Notes under the pieces: generated by a model | Database searches by the model: none | Seen by the model: the letters and a program-made list of their open reading frames with translations, nothing else | Told to the model about the DNA's origin: nothing | From: Gemmatimonas sp. | GTDB taxonomy: Bacteria > Gemmatimonadota > Gemmatimonadetes > Gemmatimonadales > Gemmatimonadaceae | Length of the DNA: 64,000 nt | Direction of reading: 5' to 3' | Assembly (NCBI GenBank): GCA_013822425.1 | Contig: PNKL01000010.1 | Span: 1 to 64,000, forward strand | Made by a program: the position numbers and the translations under genes | Shown here: positions 13,621 through 21,448 of the stretch, piece by piece | Layout: every line of letters begins with the position of its first letter | Position numbering within the stretch: position 1 is the stretch's first letter

Positions 13621-14505
13621 ATGAAAACCCCTGCAAGACCCTCGCCACGCTTCAGGTCGCTGAAGCATCCCGGCGCGCTGACCGCGCTGATGGAGAACCT
13701 GCGCGAGGCGTTCTACATCACGAGCGCCCGCGGGGTGGTGGTTGACGCCAATCCGGCATTCCTGTCGATACTCGGCGTGCGCACCATGCACGATCTGCGG
13801 TCGTATTCGCTGTCGGACATGATCGCCGACCCGAAACGGCGGATGGAAGAGCTGGATATCCTCGACAAGAAGGGCACGGTGCGCGATTTCGAGATTGAGA
13901 TCGTGCGTCCGGACGGGGCCGTGCGCACGGTGCTCGACAGCTGCTACGTCTGTGTCGACGACGCAACGGGGGAGACGTTCTACCACGGTGTCCTGGTGGA
14001 CATCACCGACCGCAAGCGCCAGGAAGACGCGCTGCGCGAGCAGAGTGTCCGGGATCCGCTCACCGGCTGCTACAACCGCCGCTATCTCGAACAGATCGAG
14101 CCCGAGCTGGAGAGCGCCGAGTCGCCCTTCGGCTGCATCTTCATCGACATCGACCACGCGATTTCAAGCAGTACAACGACACGCATGGCCATGGGTGACA
14201 CGACGCTCGTGCGGATGAGTCGCTTCCTGATGCGGCAGGTGCGCGCGGAAGAGCCGGTGATCCGCCTGGGCGGCGACGAGTTCCTGCTGGTGCTGAACCC
14301 GGCAGACGAGGACGCCGTGGAGATGGTAGCGCGCCGCCTTCAGCTGGCGGCCATGCGCACGGCTCCGGTGCCGTTCTCGCTGGGGTGGAGTACGCGGCGA
14401 CCCGGCGAATCGGTGCAGGACACAGTCAACCGGGCAGACCAGCGGCTGCTCTCCGTACGGGTGATGGAACGCGCCGGCACCCGGAATCCGGGTGCCTCGG
14501 AATAG
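13621..14505 (+). CDS. PAS-GGDEF protein with an internally frameshifted GGDEF domain
   Basis: A 294-aa cytoplasmic protein: a PAS domain at about residues 20-130 (ending in the VDITDRKRQED linker) and a GGDEF domain at about 135-285. The RLGGDEFLL active-site loop is intact. However, after DIDH the protein reads AISSSTTTRMAM where the family has FKQYNDTHGH. That canonical stretch is present in another frame at 14163-14192. An extra GCGAT (14158-14162) shifts the frame, and about five bases missing near 14193 restore it before GDTTLVRMS. The replaced residues include the Lys and Asn/Asp that hold GTP in PleD-type enzymes, so cyclase activity is doubtful. RAEE replaces the usual RxxD inhibitory site. 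Confidence 0.8.
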   Translation: MKTPARPSPRFRSLKHPGALTALMENLREAFYITSARGVVVDANPAFLSILGVRTMHDLRSYSLSDMIADPKRRMEELDILDKKGTVRDFEIEIVRPDGAVRTVLDSCYVCVDDATGETFYHGVLVDITDRKRQEDALREQSVRDPLTGCYNRRYLEQIEPELESAESPFGCIFIDIDHAISSSTTTRMAMGDTTLVRMSRFLMRQVRAEEPVIRLGGDEFLLVLNPADEDAVEMVARRLQLAAMRTAPVPFSLGWSTRRPGESVQDTVNRADQRLLSVRVMERAGTRNPGASE

Positions 14506-14528
14506 AGCTGAGCTCAGCGGCAGGAGCT

Positions 14529-14550
14529 GGCCTTTTTCACCACGAAGCAC
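14529..14550. repeat. Orphan arm of the TTCACCACGGAG palindrome family
   Basis: CCTTTTTCACCACGAAGCAC lies between the GGDEF and VWA genes. It matches the outer arm of palindromic elements A and B. I see no opposing arm nearby. Confidence 0.55.
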
Positions 14551-14622
14551 AGGAAAGCAGGGGAGGTGTGCAAGAAAGACGGCGGCGGCCGTCTCCCCGG
14601 GAACCAACATATGGAGGAGATC

Positions 14623-16821
14623 GTGCGTCGCCTCGTGTCTTCCATGGCCTTCTGCCTGCCGCTGACGGCGACCGCCACGCCACAGACCGATCGCATTGAC
14701 CGTTCGGTCCCCTGCGTCGACTGTCCAACCTGCGAAACACGGCTGCCCTGCGTCCGTGCCGCACAGGTCGTTCGTACGTCGAGCCGCGCCGTGCTGACCA
14801 TTGACGGTCGCGTGGTGCGCTACGAGATCACCGAGCGCTTCGTGAATCGCGGCGCCGTGGTGGGAGAGACCGACTACCTGCTGCCGTTGCCGGCGCGCGC
14901 GGCCTTCGAGGACCTTGCACTCTCGATTGACGGCGAGATGGTGACCGGGGAGACCCTGCGAGCCGACCGTGCGCGGTCGATCTACGAGGAAATCGTGCGC
15001 CGTCAGCGCGATCCGGCGCTCGTGGAATGGATGGGACAGGGCCTGCTGCGCACACGCATCTTCCCCATCGCGCCCGGGGAAGAGAAAACGGTGATCGTGC
15101 GTTTCCGGGCCATCGTCGAGCGGGAGGGCGACGCGCTTCGCCTGGATTACCGGCCGCCCATGCGCACCGGCGACGACGGCGCACGCAGCACCCTTGAGGT
15201 GCGCTACCCCGCGCGCGGCGAGTTCGGGCGCGCCTTCTCCCCGACGCACGACCTCGACATTGGCGAACAGGGAAGCCTGCGCCATGCACGGGCCGAGCGT
15301 GTTCGCGGTGTTGCCACCATCCTGGTACCGGTGCGCGCCGAACGTTCGGCGTCGGTGCACATGCTGACCCACGCCAGAAGCGGAGAGGACGGCTTCGTGA
15401 TGATCACCATTGCGCCTCCCGCGGTCAGCCGAACGGTGACCCCGCGGGACGTGACGTTCGTGCTGGACGTATCGGGATCAATGGCCGGCGCGAAGATCGA
15501 GCAGGCGCGGCAGGCCGGACGAGCGCTGCTGGCCGGGCTGAACCCGATCGACCGATTCCGCGTGATCGCGTTCAGCAGCGAGGTGAGCGGGTTTCGCGAC
15601 GGTTGGCAGGCGACGACAGGGCCCAACGTGCGCGCCGCCCATCGGTATCTCGACGGGCTGAAGGCTGAGGGATCAACCAACATCTCCGGGGCGCTCGAAG
15701 CGGCGCTGGAGGAGGCACACGGCACCGGTCGCCTCGCCGTGATCCTGTTCCTGACCGATGGTGCACCGACCGTAGGCGAGCGCAATCCGGATCGCATCGC
15801 GGCGCTGGCCCGGCGCCTGCGCGGACGCCAGCGACTCTTCACGTTTGGCGTGGGTGTCGACGTGAACGCAGCGCTCCTCGAACAGCTGGCGTTGAGCGGA
15901 CGCGGCACGGCGCAGTTCGTGCGCCCGGAAGAGGATGTGGAGCGCGCGGTGAGCGTGGTTGCCCAGCGGCTGACGGATCCTGTGGCCACCGACCTGCGGG
16001 TTCGCGTGAACGGCGTGCGCCTTGAGCGCATGCAGCCCACGGATGCGGTTGACCTCTTTGCCGGGCAGGAAGTCACGCTCCTTGCGCGCTATCGCGGAAG
16101 CGCCGGCGCCGCGACGCTGACGGTCGAAGGATCGAGCGTTGATGGTCCCGTGCGCTGGACGACCACGGGCGAGTTTGCGGCGCGGGCACCGGGCAACGCC
16201 TTCATTGCGCGGCTCTGGGCGGTGCAGCGGGTCGGCTGGTTGAGCGCCGAGCGACGACGCAACGGAGCCACAGCCGAGCTCGACGAGGAACTGCGGACCC
16301 TTGGCATGCAATACGGGATTCCCACCGAGCTGACCTCGTATCTCGTGGTCGAACCAGGCATGCAGACGGGACGGCCGACGAACATGCCGCGCCGGGACCG
16401 CGGGACGCCCGCCGGGTCGGTCATTGGAGGCGCGGGTGCGGCCGCTCCGGCGCCCGTGCAGATGTTCGAGGCGGCAAAGGCCGCCGCAGACCAGCGCGCG
16501 GTGCAGAACATGTCGCAGCTGGATGCCGCGCAGGCAGGGCTCGCGGGTCGTCAGCAGTTCGCGATGGGGCGGATGTTCACGCAGGTGGACGGCGAGTGGC
16601 AGGATGCGATGCCAGCGGGACAGGCGACACGCGTCGTCCGCGTTGCAGCCTACTCTGCGGCGTACTTTGCGCTGCTCGACCGGCTGCCGGCGCTCAAGGA
16701 AGCCTTTGCAATAGGCGAGCGCGTGGCGGTGCAGGGACGCGCTGTCCGCCTCGTGCTCGACCCGAAGGGCGACAGCACGCTGGCGGTGGGTGCACTCGAC
16801 GCGATCGTGCGAGATTGGTAA
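14623..16821 (+). CDS. Exported VIT and von Willebrand factor A domain protein
   Basis: A 732-aa protein. A GTG start at 14623 is chosen: it follows GGAGGAG at ideal spacing and begins a signal peptide, VRRLVSSMAFCLPLTATATP. A cysteine-rich stretch (CVDCPTCETRLPC) comes next, then a VIT domain (about 45-180; YEEIVRRQRDPALVE is typical) and a VWA domain (about 275-450). The MIDAS metal site is complete: DVSGS, the T of GSTN, and the D of LTDGA. The C-terminal 200 residues have no recognised domain. It is followed after 4 bases by an ECF sigma gene and its anti-sigma gene, so it probably works in or is sensed by that envelope-stress circuit. It resembles inter-alpha-trypsin-inhibitor-like bacterial proteins. 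Confidence 0.85.
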   Translation: MRRLVSSMAFCLPLTATATPQTDRIDRSVPCVDCPTCETRLPCVRAAQVVRTSSRAVLTIDGRVVRYEITERFVNRGAVVGETDYLLPLPARAAFEDLALSIDGEMVTGETLRADRARSIYEEIVRRQRDPALVEWMGQGLLRTRIFPIAPGEEKTVIVRFRAIVEREGDALRLDYRPPMRTGDDGARSTLEVRYPARGEFGRAFSPTHDLDIGEQGSLRHARAERVRGVATILVPVRAERSASVHMLTHARSGEDGFVMITIAPPAVSRTVTPRDVTFVLDVSGSMAGAKIEQARQAGRALLAGLNPIDRFRVIAFSSEVSGFRDGWQATTGPNVRAAHRYLDGLKAEGSTNISGALEAALEEAHGTGRLAVILFLTDGAPTVGERNPDRIAALARRLRGRQRLFTFGVGVDVNAALLEQLALSGRGTAQFVRPEEDVERAVSVVAQRLTDPVATDLRVRVNGVRLERMQPTDAVDLFAGQEVTLLARYRGSAGAATLTVEGSSVDGPVRWTTTGEFAARAPGNAFIARLWAVQRVGWLSAERRRNGATAELDEELRTLGMQYGIPTELTSYLVVEPGMQTGRPTNMPRRDRGTPAGSVIGGAGAAAPAPVQMFEAAKAAADQRAVQNMSQLDAAQAGLAGRQQFAMGRMFTQVDGEWQDAMPAGQATRVVRVAAYSAAYFALLDRLPALKEAFAIGERVAVQGRAVRLVLDPKGDSTLAVGALDAIVRDW

Positions 16822-16825
16822 CGAC

Positions 16826-17344
16826 ATGTCCGACACCGAACGTCTCTTCACGACCTACCATGCCGCGCTTGTGCGCTACCTCACGCGCCGCCTGGGAGAC
16901 CGTGACTGGGCAGAAGACATCGCCCAGGAGACGTTCGTGCGGGCGCTGCGACAGGAGCACCTGGTGAACGAACGGTCATGGCTGTTTGCCGTTGCGAGCA
17001 ACCTGGTGCGGGACGCGGGGCGCAAGGCGATCCGCCACCGCCGGCACCTGGAACTGCTCGCCGCGGAGCAGCGAGAGGCACACGTCGAGGCGCCGGACAC
17101 GGCACTCGAACGCGCGCAGGATGCGGCTGATGCGCGGCACGCGCTCGACACACTGGCCGAGCGTGACCGGCAGGCGCTCCTGCTGCGCGAGGAAGGGCTC
17201 GACTACCCGGAACTCGCGGAGATTCTCGGCATCGCCGTCGGGTCCGTGGGAACGACACTATCGCGCGCGCGCCGGCGCCTGGCGGAATCGCATGAAGCGC
17301 AGACAGCGGCGCGGGCACAGCGAGGGCACCATGCCGCGTCCTGA
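16826..17344 (+). CDS. ECF-family RNA polymerase sigma factor
   Basis: A 172-aa sigma-70 family protein with region 2 at about residues 6-70 (FTTYHAALVRYLTRRLGDRD, then AEDIAQETFVRA) and region 4 at about 105-160 (LAERDRQALLLREEGLDYPE, then LAEILGIAVGSVGTTLSRAR). It lacks region 3, as ECF factors do. It starts 4 bases after the VWA gene, and its last 14 bases overlap the start of the putative anti-sigma gene. The set probably reads an envelope or periplasmic signal. Targets are not visible. Confidence 0.92.
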   Translation: MSDTERLFTTYHAALVRYLTRRLGDRDWAEDIAQETFVRALRQEHLVNERSWLFAVASNLVRDAGRKAIRHRRHLELLAAEQREAHVEAPDTALERAQDAADARHALDTLAERDRQALLLREEGLDYPELAEILGIAVGSVGTTLSRARRRLAESHEAQTAARAQRGHHAAS

Positions 17345-18305
17345 TGATGGATTGATTCACGCCTGGATTGATGGGCAGCTGCCGCCTGATGAAGCCGCGC
17401 GCATCGAGGCACTCGCAGCGGCTGATCCCGAGTGGGCCGCAGCGGTGGCCGAGGCGCGCGGGCTCGTGGCCGCGTCCTCGCGCATTCTCTCGGCGCTCGA
17501 TCATGTGCCGGCAGGCGTGGTGCCGACAGGCACTACCGCGCGCACGGGGCAGCGCCTGCCGTGGTGGACGAAGGCTGCCGCCGCCGTGGTGGTGGTCGGC
17601 GGAAGCGTCTTGGTGATGCAGAACGCTCCCGACGGGCGTATGTCTGCGCCGTCCACCGAACAGAGCTCAGCGCAGCCGGCGCCGGACGCGCCGAAGCCGG
17701 TAGCCCAGGCGCCCGGCACCTCGTCGCCAGTGCTGGCGACACCGGTTCCAGCGCCGGCGGCGGTTGCGACTGTACGCGAGACTGTCGCCGCTCCTGTCGC
17801 CGCTCCTGTCGCCGCTCCTGTCGCCGCTCCTGTCGCCGCTCCTGTCGCCGCTCCCGTCGCCGGCGCGCAGGCCGATGCTGCGGCAGGGAGAAGCGATGCT
17901 CCTGAGTTGCGGAGAGAGGCGCTCGCGATGCAGCCTATCACGTCCCCTGCAGTGCGCGCACGGTCGGCCAACACAATTGTTGCCGAGGAACGGAAGGCCG
18001 TGCAGGACGCGGATCGCGTGGTTGCCGAAGTGTCTGGGGCGAAGTCGCTGGTAGCAAAGGCCGCGCCGAGTACTGTACCGAGTACTGTACCGAGTGCACG
18101 CCGAGTGCTGTGCCGAGTGCTGTGCCGAGTGCTGTGCCGCAGGCACAGCAAGCATCCACCCAGGGTTTCGCACAGACGCAAACCGCCGTGCCAGCGCAGC
18201 GTGTGGTGGCAGGGGTCTCCGCGGCAAGGAACGCAAAGGCACCGCAGGAGAGTCTATGCTATCGGCTCGTGCCCGACAGTTCGCGTGTCGGTGTTGCCAT
18301 CATAA
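17331..18305 (+). CDS. Anti-sigma factor-like membrane protein, frameshifted
   Basis: Overlaps the ECF sigma gene by 14 bases. The N-terminal cytoplasmic part (1-75) begins DGLIHAWIDGQLPPDEAARI, the usual look of an anti-sigma domain but without the zinc-binding HCxxC. One transmembrane helix is at about 82-102 (AAAAVVVVGGSVLVM). The periplasmic part is low in complexity: a seven-fold APVA repeat coded by a 12-bp minisatellite (17784-17855), then a second repeat region (18066-18136). In the second, one unit is 11 bp instead of 12, so the frame shifts at 18090-18100 and ends at 18305 with an arginine/cysteine-rich tail. The original C-terminus continues in the other frame to 18481. Confidence 0.7.
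   Translation: MPRPDDGLIHAWIDGQLPPDEAARIEALAAADPEWAAAVAEARGLVAASSRILSALDHVPAGVVPTGTTARTGQRLPWWTKAAAAVVVVGGSVLVMQNAPDGRMSAPSTEQSSAQPAPDAPKPVAQAPGTSSPVLATPVPAPAAVATVRETVAAPVAAPVAAPVAAPVAAPVAAPVAGAQADAAAGRSDAPELRREALAMQPITSPAVRARSANTIVAEERKAVQDADRVVAEVSGAKSLVAKAAPSTVPSTVPSARRVLCRVLCRVLCRRHSKHPPRVSHRRKPPCQRSVWWQGSPRQGTQRHRRRVYAIGSCPTVRVSVLPS
17784..17855 (+). repeat. 12-bp minisatellite GTCGCCGCTCCT, six copies
   Basis: Six exact or near-exact 12-bp units (the last ends CCC) followed by a partial unit. Read in frame they code for repeated Val-Ala-Ala-Pro in the periplasmic linker of the anti-sigma protein. Because the unit is a multiple of three, copy-number changes would alter linker length but not frame. 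Confidence 0.92.
18066..18136 (+). repeat. 12-bp minisatellite with one 11-bp unit
   Basis: Units: two CCGAGTACTGTA (18066-18089), one CCGAGTGCACG of 11 bp (18090-18100), three CCGAGTGCTGTG (18101-18136). The short unit is what breaks the anti-sigma reading frame. Confidence 0.9.
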
Positions 18306-18481
18306 TGCGCACCATGCGCGCCGACGGAGATACGCTGCGCCTCGTTCCGGTGGAGCCCAACGTGTCGCAGCGCGCCTGGCTCGTGTTGGGTGACGGAATG
18401 AAGGGGGTCATGACGACGAACGGTGATCTGCGGAGTGCGGTGCGGGTCGTCGCGGCACCGACAGCGTGTCCCGAACCGTAG
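18101..18481 (+). pseudogene. Out-of-frame C-terminus of the anti-sigma protein
   Basis: In the frame set by the last three repeat units (Pro-Ser-Ala-Val), about 126 codons run to a stop at 18481. Their second half has ordinary protein character (ESLCYRLVPDSSRVGVAII and RAWLVLGDGMKGVMTTNGDL) and looks like a folded domain of about 75 residues. Restoring one base in the 11-bp unit would give a single 383-aa protein. The region has no good ribosome site of its own, so it is probably not translated independently; an ATG at 18110 opens the frame. Confidence 0.65.
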
Positions 18482-18494
18482 ACCGGACTCGCGG

Positions 18495-18920
18495 TCAGCC
18501 GGACTCGTCGGGAAAGTGCGTGGGCACGGTGCGGGCACAGGCGATGAGGGCCTTCGCCGCGCCGGCGTGGAGCATCAGTGTGCCCAGCGAGCCGTGCAGC
18601 CGGACCTGACGCAGGGCGACGGCCATCACCGGATCCAACGCGCCGCGCACGATGCGCTTCCAGGCGGCGTATTGTGCGCGTAGCACGAACGGCGCCGTCG
18701 CAGCGGAAGGGTCGAGCACCCTGGCCGCCGTGCACGTGCCCCTGTCGAGGTCGAATTCGACGGCGGTGTCCACGGGATACCCGAGTGCCGGCGCCGCTTC
18801 GAGCACCAACGCAACCGGCCAGGTCCACGTCCTGGCGGCTACGCGATACGCCTGGTCGGCGTTGATCGCATCACGAAGGGCGTCCGCCCACGGCTGAGAG
18901 AAGGGGCGCAGATGGGTCAC
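18495..18920 (-). CDS. SCP2 sterol-binding-like domain protein
   Basis: A 141-aa protein. From the GTG at 18920 it reads VTHLRPFSQPWADALRDAIN, the usual opening of small bacterial SCP2-fold proteins. The C-terminal half, with VRGALDPVMAVALRQVRLHG and LMLHAGAAKALI, fits the SCP2 lipid-binding fold. It has no signal peptide. The open frame extends upstream into the end of the phosphoesterase gene without similarity; a TTG just after that gene's stop is another possible start. It follows the phosphoesterase gene on the same strand and converges on the anti-sigma gene. It probably binds a hydrophobic ligand; the ligand is unknown. Confidence 0.68.
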   Translation of the reverse strand: MTHLRPFSQPWADALRDAINADQAYRVAARTWTWPVALVLEAAPALGYPVDTAVEFDLDRGTCTAARVLDPSAATAPFVLRAQYAAWKRIVRGALDPVMAVALRQVRLHGSLGTLMLHAGAAKALIACARTVPTHFPDESG

Positions 18921-18981: not shown

Positions 18982-21448
18982 CTACCTGGCACGCGCGAGT
19001 TCGAGCAGCGGGATCCGGCGCGTGCCGGGATATGGCACGACACTCCCCTTGATCGTGCGCCAGAGGATGTGGTTGAACAACTCCTCCTCGGCGACGTCCT
19101 CGAAGCGCAGGTCGAGCCGTGCTGATTCCCGTGCTTCGCGCGTGCTGGCCGGGTTCACCTCGTCGAGGTTCACCGCTGGCAGCAGTGCCACGTACGGCCG
19201 CAGGTCGGGGTTCTTCCGCCAGATCTCGCGCAAGGGCTGGCCGAAGTAGTCGAACTGCGAGAGCGACGCGAGGCCGAGAATCTCCTCGATGGTCAGGAGG
19301 ACGTCGGTCGTGTTGGCAAAACGGTGCACCACCCCGCCCGCCGAGTATGGCGAGATGACGAACAACGGCGACCGATGGGAATCCACATGATCAGGTCCGT
19401 TCTGCGCATCGTCCTCGAGCACGAAGACCGCAGTGCTCCGCCAGAACGGCGACCTGGAGAGCGCCTCGATCATGCGACCCAGCGCGAGGTCGTTGTCTGC
19501 CATATGTGCCCGCGGGGTAGGGGCGCCGGCGCGAGCGCCGGACGTATGGTCGTTGGGGAGCCGCACGATCTGCAGACGCGGCATGCTGCCGCGTCGCACC
19601 CATTCGTTGAACTCCCCGAGCCATGCATCCACCCGCACCTGGTCGCGGATCTTGAGGTCGTACGACGGAAACGCCGCGCTCGTATGGGCGCGCAGGAACG
19701 GCTTGTTGCCCTTGTAGCCGGCGGGCATCGGGTCGTTGCGATCAACCTCGGCGGGAATCACGAATTCGCCGAAGTTCCGGAACGAAATCCCCGCCCGCTG
19801 GGCAAGATTCCAGAGGTACCCGTTGGCCGGCTCGGAGACGTCGTCGTCATCCACCGGCTCGCGGCCGCGATTGGTGCCTTCGTAGTCGTAGGTGCGGCCA
19901 CGATTCGAGTAGTTGGACGGCACCGTCTTCTGCAGGTAGTCCGTGGTGTAGGCGGCCATCGACCAGTTATGACCGTCCGGGCTCACGTCGGCGTTCACGA
20001 AGAAGCGATCGAAGAGACCGAAGCGCTCGGCGAGGGCGTGGTGGTTTGGCGAGACAGGGCGGGGGAAGAAGAGCAGTGAGGTGTCGCCGTCGCCCTGCGG
20101 CAGGTCGCCGAGGATCTGGTCGTAGGTGCGGTTCTCCTTGATGATGTAGATGACGTGCTCGATGGGCGGGTAGGAGAACTTCTCGCGGGTCTCGCCCCAT
20201 CGGTTGGCGCGGGCGACCCGCGAGGAGAACGGGACGAGCGTCGCGGCGCTGGCACGGGCCGCGAGCGTGGTGATGATCGAGCCGGTGGTCTGGCCGAGCG
20301 TGTACTGATACGGGTCGAACCCCTCGTCAGCCCGGCCCCGTCCCGGCGTCGGGCCATTGATGTTGGGTCCGGTGCCGCGGCCCTTGCCCGTCAGCGTGAT
20401 GAGCGTGTCACCGCGTGCAATCACGGACGTTGGATACCACTCCACCGGAATGCGGCCCGTCACGACGTCGGTGCCGGCAGCTCCTGGCACGCCGGAGGTC
20501 TCCGCCGCAAGGTCCACGATGGCGACGGCGTTGTTGTCTGCTTCGGCGACGAAGAGCCGGCGGCCGTCCTCGGATAGTGCAAGCGCGTTCGGCGTGGAGC
20601 CCTCACCAGGACCTCCGGGCGGCGTCACGACGATGCTGGTGATGACACGCCGCTGCCGTGGGTCAAGCACCGTGATGCGATCGGTGGATCCCGAGGTGAC
20701 GAAGAGGCGCGACCCGTCATGATTCAGCAGCAGGGCCGACGGATGCCGTCCGCCCGCCATGCGGCCGGCCGGCGCAAGACGGCCGCCGGTGGGCGTGAAC
20801 ACCGCCACGGTAGATCCCCCCCACGACGACACGTAAACCGCGCCCTGTCCGTCAACCACCACGCCGTAGGGATACCGGTCCACCCCGAACCGCTGCACCA
20901 CCTGGGCCGTCGCCACGTCCACCACGGCGAGCGAATCGGTCAGGTTCTCCGCGACGTACAATCGTGCACCGTCGGGTGAGAGTGCGAGGCCCGCGGGATA
21001 GCGCTTGCCGTTCTTGCCTCTGCCTTGGTCTCGATGACGATGGAGTCGGTACGCGTTGCACGCCCGTTTGTCCACGCATAGCGATAGACCACATCCTGAT
21101 TTCCACCACTCACGTAGAGTGTGCGGCCATCAGGGGAGAACGCGATCCCAAGAAAGGCGGCCGCCTGCGGCAGCGTCTGGAGAATGCGTCCCGATTCCCG
21201 ATCAACCACCTGCACGCCTTGTTCACGCCAGCCGTTGAGAAGAACCACGACCTCCCGCTGCTCGGCGAGAGCGTCATGGCGAGCGGCATGGATCCGACGG
21301 GCCACACTGTCCCGGCCGGATCAAGCGTGCGTCCGGTCGGCAGGCGCCGGGGTCCCGCGTCGAGTGAGGCGGCGGCTGGTTTCGAGACCGGCGACTGACT
21401 GCACGCGGCGGCGAAGGACAGCAGGGCGATCAGGCTGGAGTGGCGCAT
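18982..21448 (-). pseudogene. YncE-propeller/phosphoesterase gene with two frameshifts
   Basis: One gene broken into three frames. The start (ATG at 21448) gives a lipoprotein signal (MRHSSLIALLSFAAACSQ) and runs to about 21265. There the sense passes to the frame reading VVVLLNGWREQGVQVVDRES until about 21020, then to the third frame, which continues to the stop at 18982 (an uninterrupted 697 codons from a GTG at 21075). The N-terminal half is a YVTN/YncE-type propeller (YPAGLALSPDGARLYVAENL). The C-terminal half is a phosphoesterase domain with IYIIKENRTYDQILGDLP, NDHTSGAR and EDDAQNGPDHVDSHRSP. Such proteins are exported and resemble acid phosphatase/phospholipase C. The large ORF alone would lack the signal peptide and first blades. 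Confidence 0.78.

Follow-up and report, generated by a model that had tools for sequence, protein, structure and literature searches.

An apparent 5-bp displacement within the GGDEF coding sequence of a single Gemmatimonas assembly

A PAS-GGDEF gene in the window analyzed here (the first 64,000 nucleotides of contig PNKL01000010.1 of Gemmatimonas sp., assembly GCA_013822425.1) carries a 5-bp insertion and, 30 nucleotides further on, a 5-bp deletion, which together rewrite 10 residues of the GGDEF domain. The best explanation, to which we give about an even chance, is that a 5-bp block was moved very recently in a single lineage, yielding a probably catalytically dead cyclase allele. The features of the gene, all on the forward strand, are as follows.

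13621 to 14505, +: PAS-GGDEF gene, 294 amino acids, with the ATG at 13621 and the stop codon ending at 14505 (list of open reading frames)
13705 to 14010, +: PAS domain, residues 29 to 130 (Pfam PAS_9, PF13426, 37.4 bits)
14047 to 14457, +: GGDEF domain, residues 143 to 279 (Pfam PF00990)
14158 to 14162, +: inserted GCGAT, from the DNA alignment with five congeners and the enumeration of placements
14163 to 14192, +: 30 nucleotides, TTCAAGCAGTACAACGACACGCATGGCCAT, encoding FKQYNDTHGH in the ancestral frame and presently read out of frame
14192 to 14193, +: point of the 5-bp deletion, where relatives have a GCGAT-type block ahead of GGTGAC
14158 to 14187, +: rewritten residues 180 to 189, AISSSTTTRM
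14269 to 14283, +: intact GGDEF loop, residues 217 to 221

A compensated +5/-5 frameshift relative to congeneric orthologs

The DNA at the site runs ATC GAC CAC, GCGAT (14158 to 14162), TTCAAGCAGTACAACGACACGCATGGCCAT (14163 to 14192), the deletion point, and GGGTGAC, and the protein reads CIFIDIDH-AISSSTTTRM-AMGDTTLV. Five congeneric orthologs, which are 80 to 86% identical to it, read DIDHFKQYNDxHGHAMGDTTLV at this place, where x is L, V, or Q. Alignment with these five congeners positions a gain of 5 bp just after DIDH and a loss of 5 bp just ahead of GGTGAC, and the DNA between the two breaks is 90 to 93% identical to that of the congeners. A compensated +5/-5 frameshift, with an extra GCGAT after DIDH and with FKQYNDTHGH spelled in the other frame opposite AISSSTTTRM, had been proposed in a first-pass annotation made from this sequence alone, and the DNA alignment bears this out, the insertion lying at 14158 to 14162 and FKQYNDTHGH being read in the +5 frame at 14163 to 14192. 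The missing block, which had been described as GCCAT-like, is instead of the GCGAT type (ATGCG, GCGAT, or CGCGA, depending on the ancestral His codon). As annotated, 12 codons (180 to 191) lie off the ancestral frame before it is regained; however, only 10 residues are rewritten and nine of these differ, as codons 190 and 191 are shifted yet still encode the ancestral AM.

The family alignment (A2) contains 19 relatives, the PAS-GGDEF protein itself being left out, and all 19 keep F-K-x-Y-N-D-x-x-G-H where the studied protein has AISSSTTTRM. F180, K181, Y183, N184, D185, G188, and H189 are invariant in every one of these relatives and are all lost here; because seven such residues were lost together, the frameshift is not a matter of chance. 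An AISSS-like segment was present in none of the five congeners or 19 relatives, which is the ortholog comparison that had been proposed as a check. With two indels of lengths not divisible by three, in one lineage and with the frame restored, the site has the makeup of a compensated frameshift pair, found in the host genome (G000) only. Rather than several genomes, or reads or transcripts, it is a single assembly of the species that carries the AISSSTTTRM form and underlies the evidence for the frameshift.

Apparent identity of the gained and lost 5-mers

To compare what was gained with what was lost, all equivalent placements of both indels were enumerated. Given CAT as the ancestral His codon, the insert can equally be placed as CGCGA at 14157 to 14161 or as ACGCG at 14156 to 14160; the context of the missing block in relatives is CA(T/C)-GCG-ATG-GGT. 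If the upstream His codon was originally CAC and the downstream one CAT, GCGAT would have been both gained and lost; with CAT upstream and CAC downstream, the same holds for CGCGA/ACGCG. Under either of these pairs base composition is conserved, while under the remaining two pairs the inserted and deleted 5-mers share four of five nucleotides. Full identity of the moved block would hinge on which His codons the ancestor had; four of the five congeners have a pair that gives exact identity. Only 2 to 5 of the 1,024 possible 5-mers (0.2 to 0.5%) would match at random. On this comparison the event looks like, and is best described as, the shift of a 5-bp block upstream by about 30 bp that leaves the base composition unchanged.

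Either indel alone leads to a stop codon shortly downstream, which favors one event, or two in quick succession. Since the 5-mer gained is apparently the one lost, a single event could account for both indels and avoid a truncated intermediate. A DNA hairpin as the driver was considered and rejected, as the folding of the two strands was unremarkable (z of 0.55 and 0.98).

In the sequence of events that we propose, a 5-bp block (GCGAT/CGCGA) would have been displaced about 30 bp upstream inside the GGDEF coding sequence, in one lineage and very recently. A single multi-jump template switch may have done this as the DNA was replicated; alternatively, a templated insertion may have come first, with the source copy deleted by slippage soon afterwards. 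The frame would have been lost over 12 codons and afterwards regained, so that FKQYNDTHGH, with which the GTP-binding helix makes its opening turns, became AISSSTTTRM. The resulting protein would still fold as a PAS-GGDEF protein, with productive GTP binding gone.

Predicted effect on the GGDEF enzyme

The GGDEF domain still matches its profile, with a score of 59 to 61 bits (cutoff, 23.8) versus 94 to 96 bits in the congeners, and the GGDEF loop at residues 217 to 221 is intact, as the first-pass annotation had stated. D176 and D193, the equivalents of PleD Asp327 and Asp344, are invariant, and motif spacing indicates that the equivalents of Asp370 and Arg446 are kept as well. Within the DxDxFKxxND motif, K181 has become Ile and N184 has become Ser; by motif spacing these are the equivalents of PleD Lys332 and Asn335, which are among the active residues of that enzyme (PMC6629876). 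In GacA, this Asn contacts the nucleobase (PMC6456294). The earlier proposal that the GTP-binding stretch is rewritten agrees with the loss of these two putative equivalents.

In the AlphaFold model both the PAS and GGDEF folds are retained, the helix formed by residues 180 to 187 of the ortholog is gone, and the pLDDT over residues 181 to 190 drops from 91 in the ortholog to 51, with values below 50 at residues 181 to 184. The patch is accordingly predicted to be disordered, in a model that, with an input of 20 sequences, tests a local change only weakly. The structures nearest to the model are PAS-GGDEF and GGDEF structures, and the nearest solved sequence is 7e6g (SiaD). The protein shares with PAS-linked cyclases of the PleD/WspR/SiaD type the domain order, the fold, the metal-binding Asp, the GGDEF loop, the Asp of G-D, and the Arg at the C-terminal phosphate site. 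Unlike them, it has the FKxYND..GH segment replaced and is without the Lys332 and Asn335 equivalents; it also has Arg at the Lys442 position, as do the aligned relatives, and RxxE in place of RxxD. Judged from the motif and the model, cyclase activity has most likely been lost.

Uniqueness and age of the change

The 28-nt junction GACCACGCGATTTCAAGCAGTACAACGA was absent from the other 178 of 179 family genomes with up to two mismatches allowed, and a copy of the junction elsewhere in the family was rejected on this result. An ortholog of the PAS-GGDEF gene was found in five of 10 congeners, some of the assemblies of the remaining five being incomplete. No second intact copy of the gene was found in the host genome, which retains three other canonical GGDEF proteins, its other GGDEF proteins being distant from this one. 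As the gene was found in only half of the congeners and these three other proteins are present, its loss should be tolerable. A PilZ domain scoring above the cutoff was identified at G000:C6:78156-78446, and none was found in congeners G001, G002, and G004.

Outside the patch, the GGDEF domain has accumulated one private amino acid change versus 12 private synonymous changes, in line with the intact congeners, which range from 0 to 3 amino acid and from 5 to 19 synonymous changes. Inside the patch, the residues of the old frame are all preserved relative to the relatives. From these two observations we infer that the event took place very recently, if it took place at all; more amino acid change would be expected in a domain that had long been dead or was free to evolve. 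The suggestion of a dead enzyme retained on account of its PAS domain may be right, but there is no sign of its being kept, and selection seems to have had too little time to act since the event.

To place the site in its genomic background, a total of 495 kb from contigs 1, 2, 3, and 10 of the assembly was compared with the syntenic parts of congener G001. Across approximately 102,600 aligned residues, the PAS-GGDEF site was the only clear internal compensated frameshift; a weak candidate match of 7 to 8 residues was found at C1:68120. Uncompensated frame breaks were about equally few in G000 and G001. Because these 495 kb contained few frame breaks and no further clear compensated frameshift, an error-ridden genome was rejected as a general explanation.

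Neighboring genes

Genes for a VIT/VWA protein, an ECF sigma factor, and anti-sigma proteins separate the GGDEF gene from its neighbors (14485 to 18489). They are also present in G004 and are missing from the syntenic place in G001 (G001:C21). The anti-sigma-like gene (17330 to 18560, +), which follows the ECF sigma gene, is split by a frame change that falls in a 12-bp tandem array, within 18065 to 18139, and its ortholog in G004 is one open frame. A 12-bp tandem array at 17782 to 17862 is nearly perfect, with 6.8 copies, and encodes VAAP repeats of the anti-sigma-like protein. A beta-propeller/phosphoesterase gene (approximately 18985 to 21320, -) has two single-base deletions relative to G001 and G004, at approximately 21018 and 21258. 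Its downstream part of 676 amino acids is well conserved, implying a recent pseudogene or a sequence error. A compensated pair was suspected at approximately 21.0 kb and was rejected, as the break proved uncompensated.

Alternative explanations

An assembly or consensus artifact, in which the organism has a normal FKQYND and the displacement comes from assembly, indel polishing, or the merging of strain variants, is quite possible, though we lean against it. The change is present in one assembly, of 206 contigs, among 179 family genomes, and the remainder of the gene matches intact congeners in conservation, as do the patch residues when read in the old frame. Genes that are otherwise conserved contain, within 4 to 7 kb of the site, three uncompensated single-base frameshifts (at approximately 18.07 to 18.14, 21.02, and 21.26 kb), making local indel error conceivable. 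A systematic survey of compensatory frameshift pairs in animals likewise fell from 624 candidate genes to six after quality filtering (PMC8935012). An artifact is, however, harder to reconcile with a frame that is restored exactly and with frame breaks that, over the 495 kb surveyed, are about as few as in G001. Moreover, a displaced 5-bp block is not known as a usual error of any sequencing platform.

That two unrelated indels were fixed in turn, with a frameshift tolerated in a dispensable gene and a compensating deletion arising later by chance, is unlikely. The deletion falls where slippage would naturally occur (ATGCGATG to ATG), the gene was found in only half of the congeners, and compensating pairs are known, most of which had been assumed to arise by way of an uncompensated stage (PMC8935012). 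This sequence of events nevertheless leaves the match between the inserted and deleted 5-mers to a coincidence of 0.2 to 0.5%, and the relaxed constraint expected after a frameshift is not seen.

Very improbable is the reading, put forward in the first-pass annotation as a c-di-GMP/GTP sensor, that the altered domain is a functional sensor or some other degenerate GGDEF output. The open frame, the GGDEF loop, the PleD Asp344 equivalent, and the predicted fold are all retained, and degenerate GGDEF receptors exist (PMC3032553 and PMC6637768). Against this, the AISSSTTTRM segment occurs in no ortholog and in one genome only among 179, is predicted to be disordered, and has no relatives in which it could be under selection. 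The gene likewise shows no sign of time for selection. The inhibitory site of c-di-GMP receptors needs RxxD five residues before GGDEF, where the studied protein and its congeners have RxxE (RAEE). Receptors such as LapD (PMC3032553) similarly have a GGDEF fold without the expected catalysis, but the known ones are inherited families, whereas the change here is confined to a single genome with no sign of retained function. It is just as hard to credit that a single replication accident transposed five bases and so produced in one step, with no truncated intermediate, a PAS-GGDEF protein that is stable and has a new ligand- or partner-binding segment.

Significance of the apparently displaced block

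The proposed recent move of a 5-bp block resembles the pairs described by Biba et al. in 2022 (PMC8935012), in which a new peptide segment is exposed by two close frame-breaking indels that jointly repair the frame. The high-confidence cases in that study are indels of 1 to 2 nt in less conserved regions of vertebrate and insect genes, whereas the present case is a +5/-5 pair in a bacterial active-site motif, with the same 5-mer seemingly lost and gained. It adds a single case to a known type of mutation, the main point being that the lost and gained 5-mers appear identical. Going by domain annotation alone, one would take this protein for an active cyclase, given the intact GGDEF loop and the good Pfam score. 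The event probably reflects either a newly arisen loss of function or a mistake in the assembly, rather than a new kind of sensor; if real, it would be a clean bacterial compensated frameshift within a catalytic motif, in which the block lost and the block gained are apparently the same.
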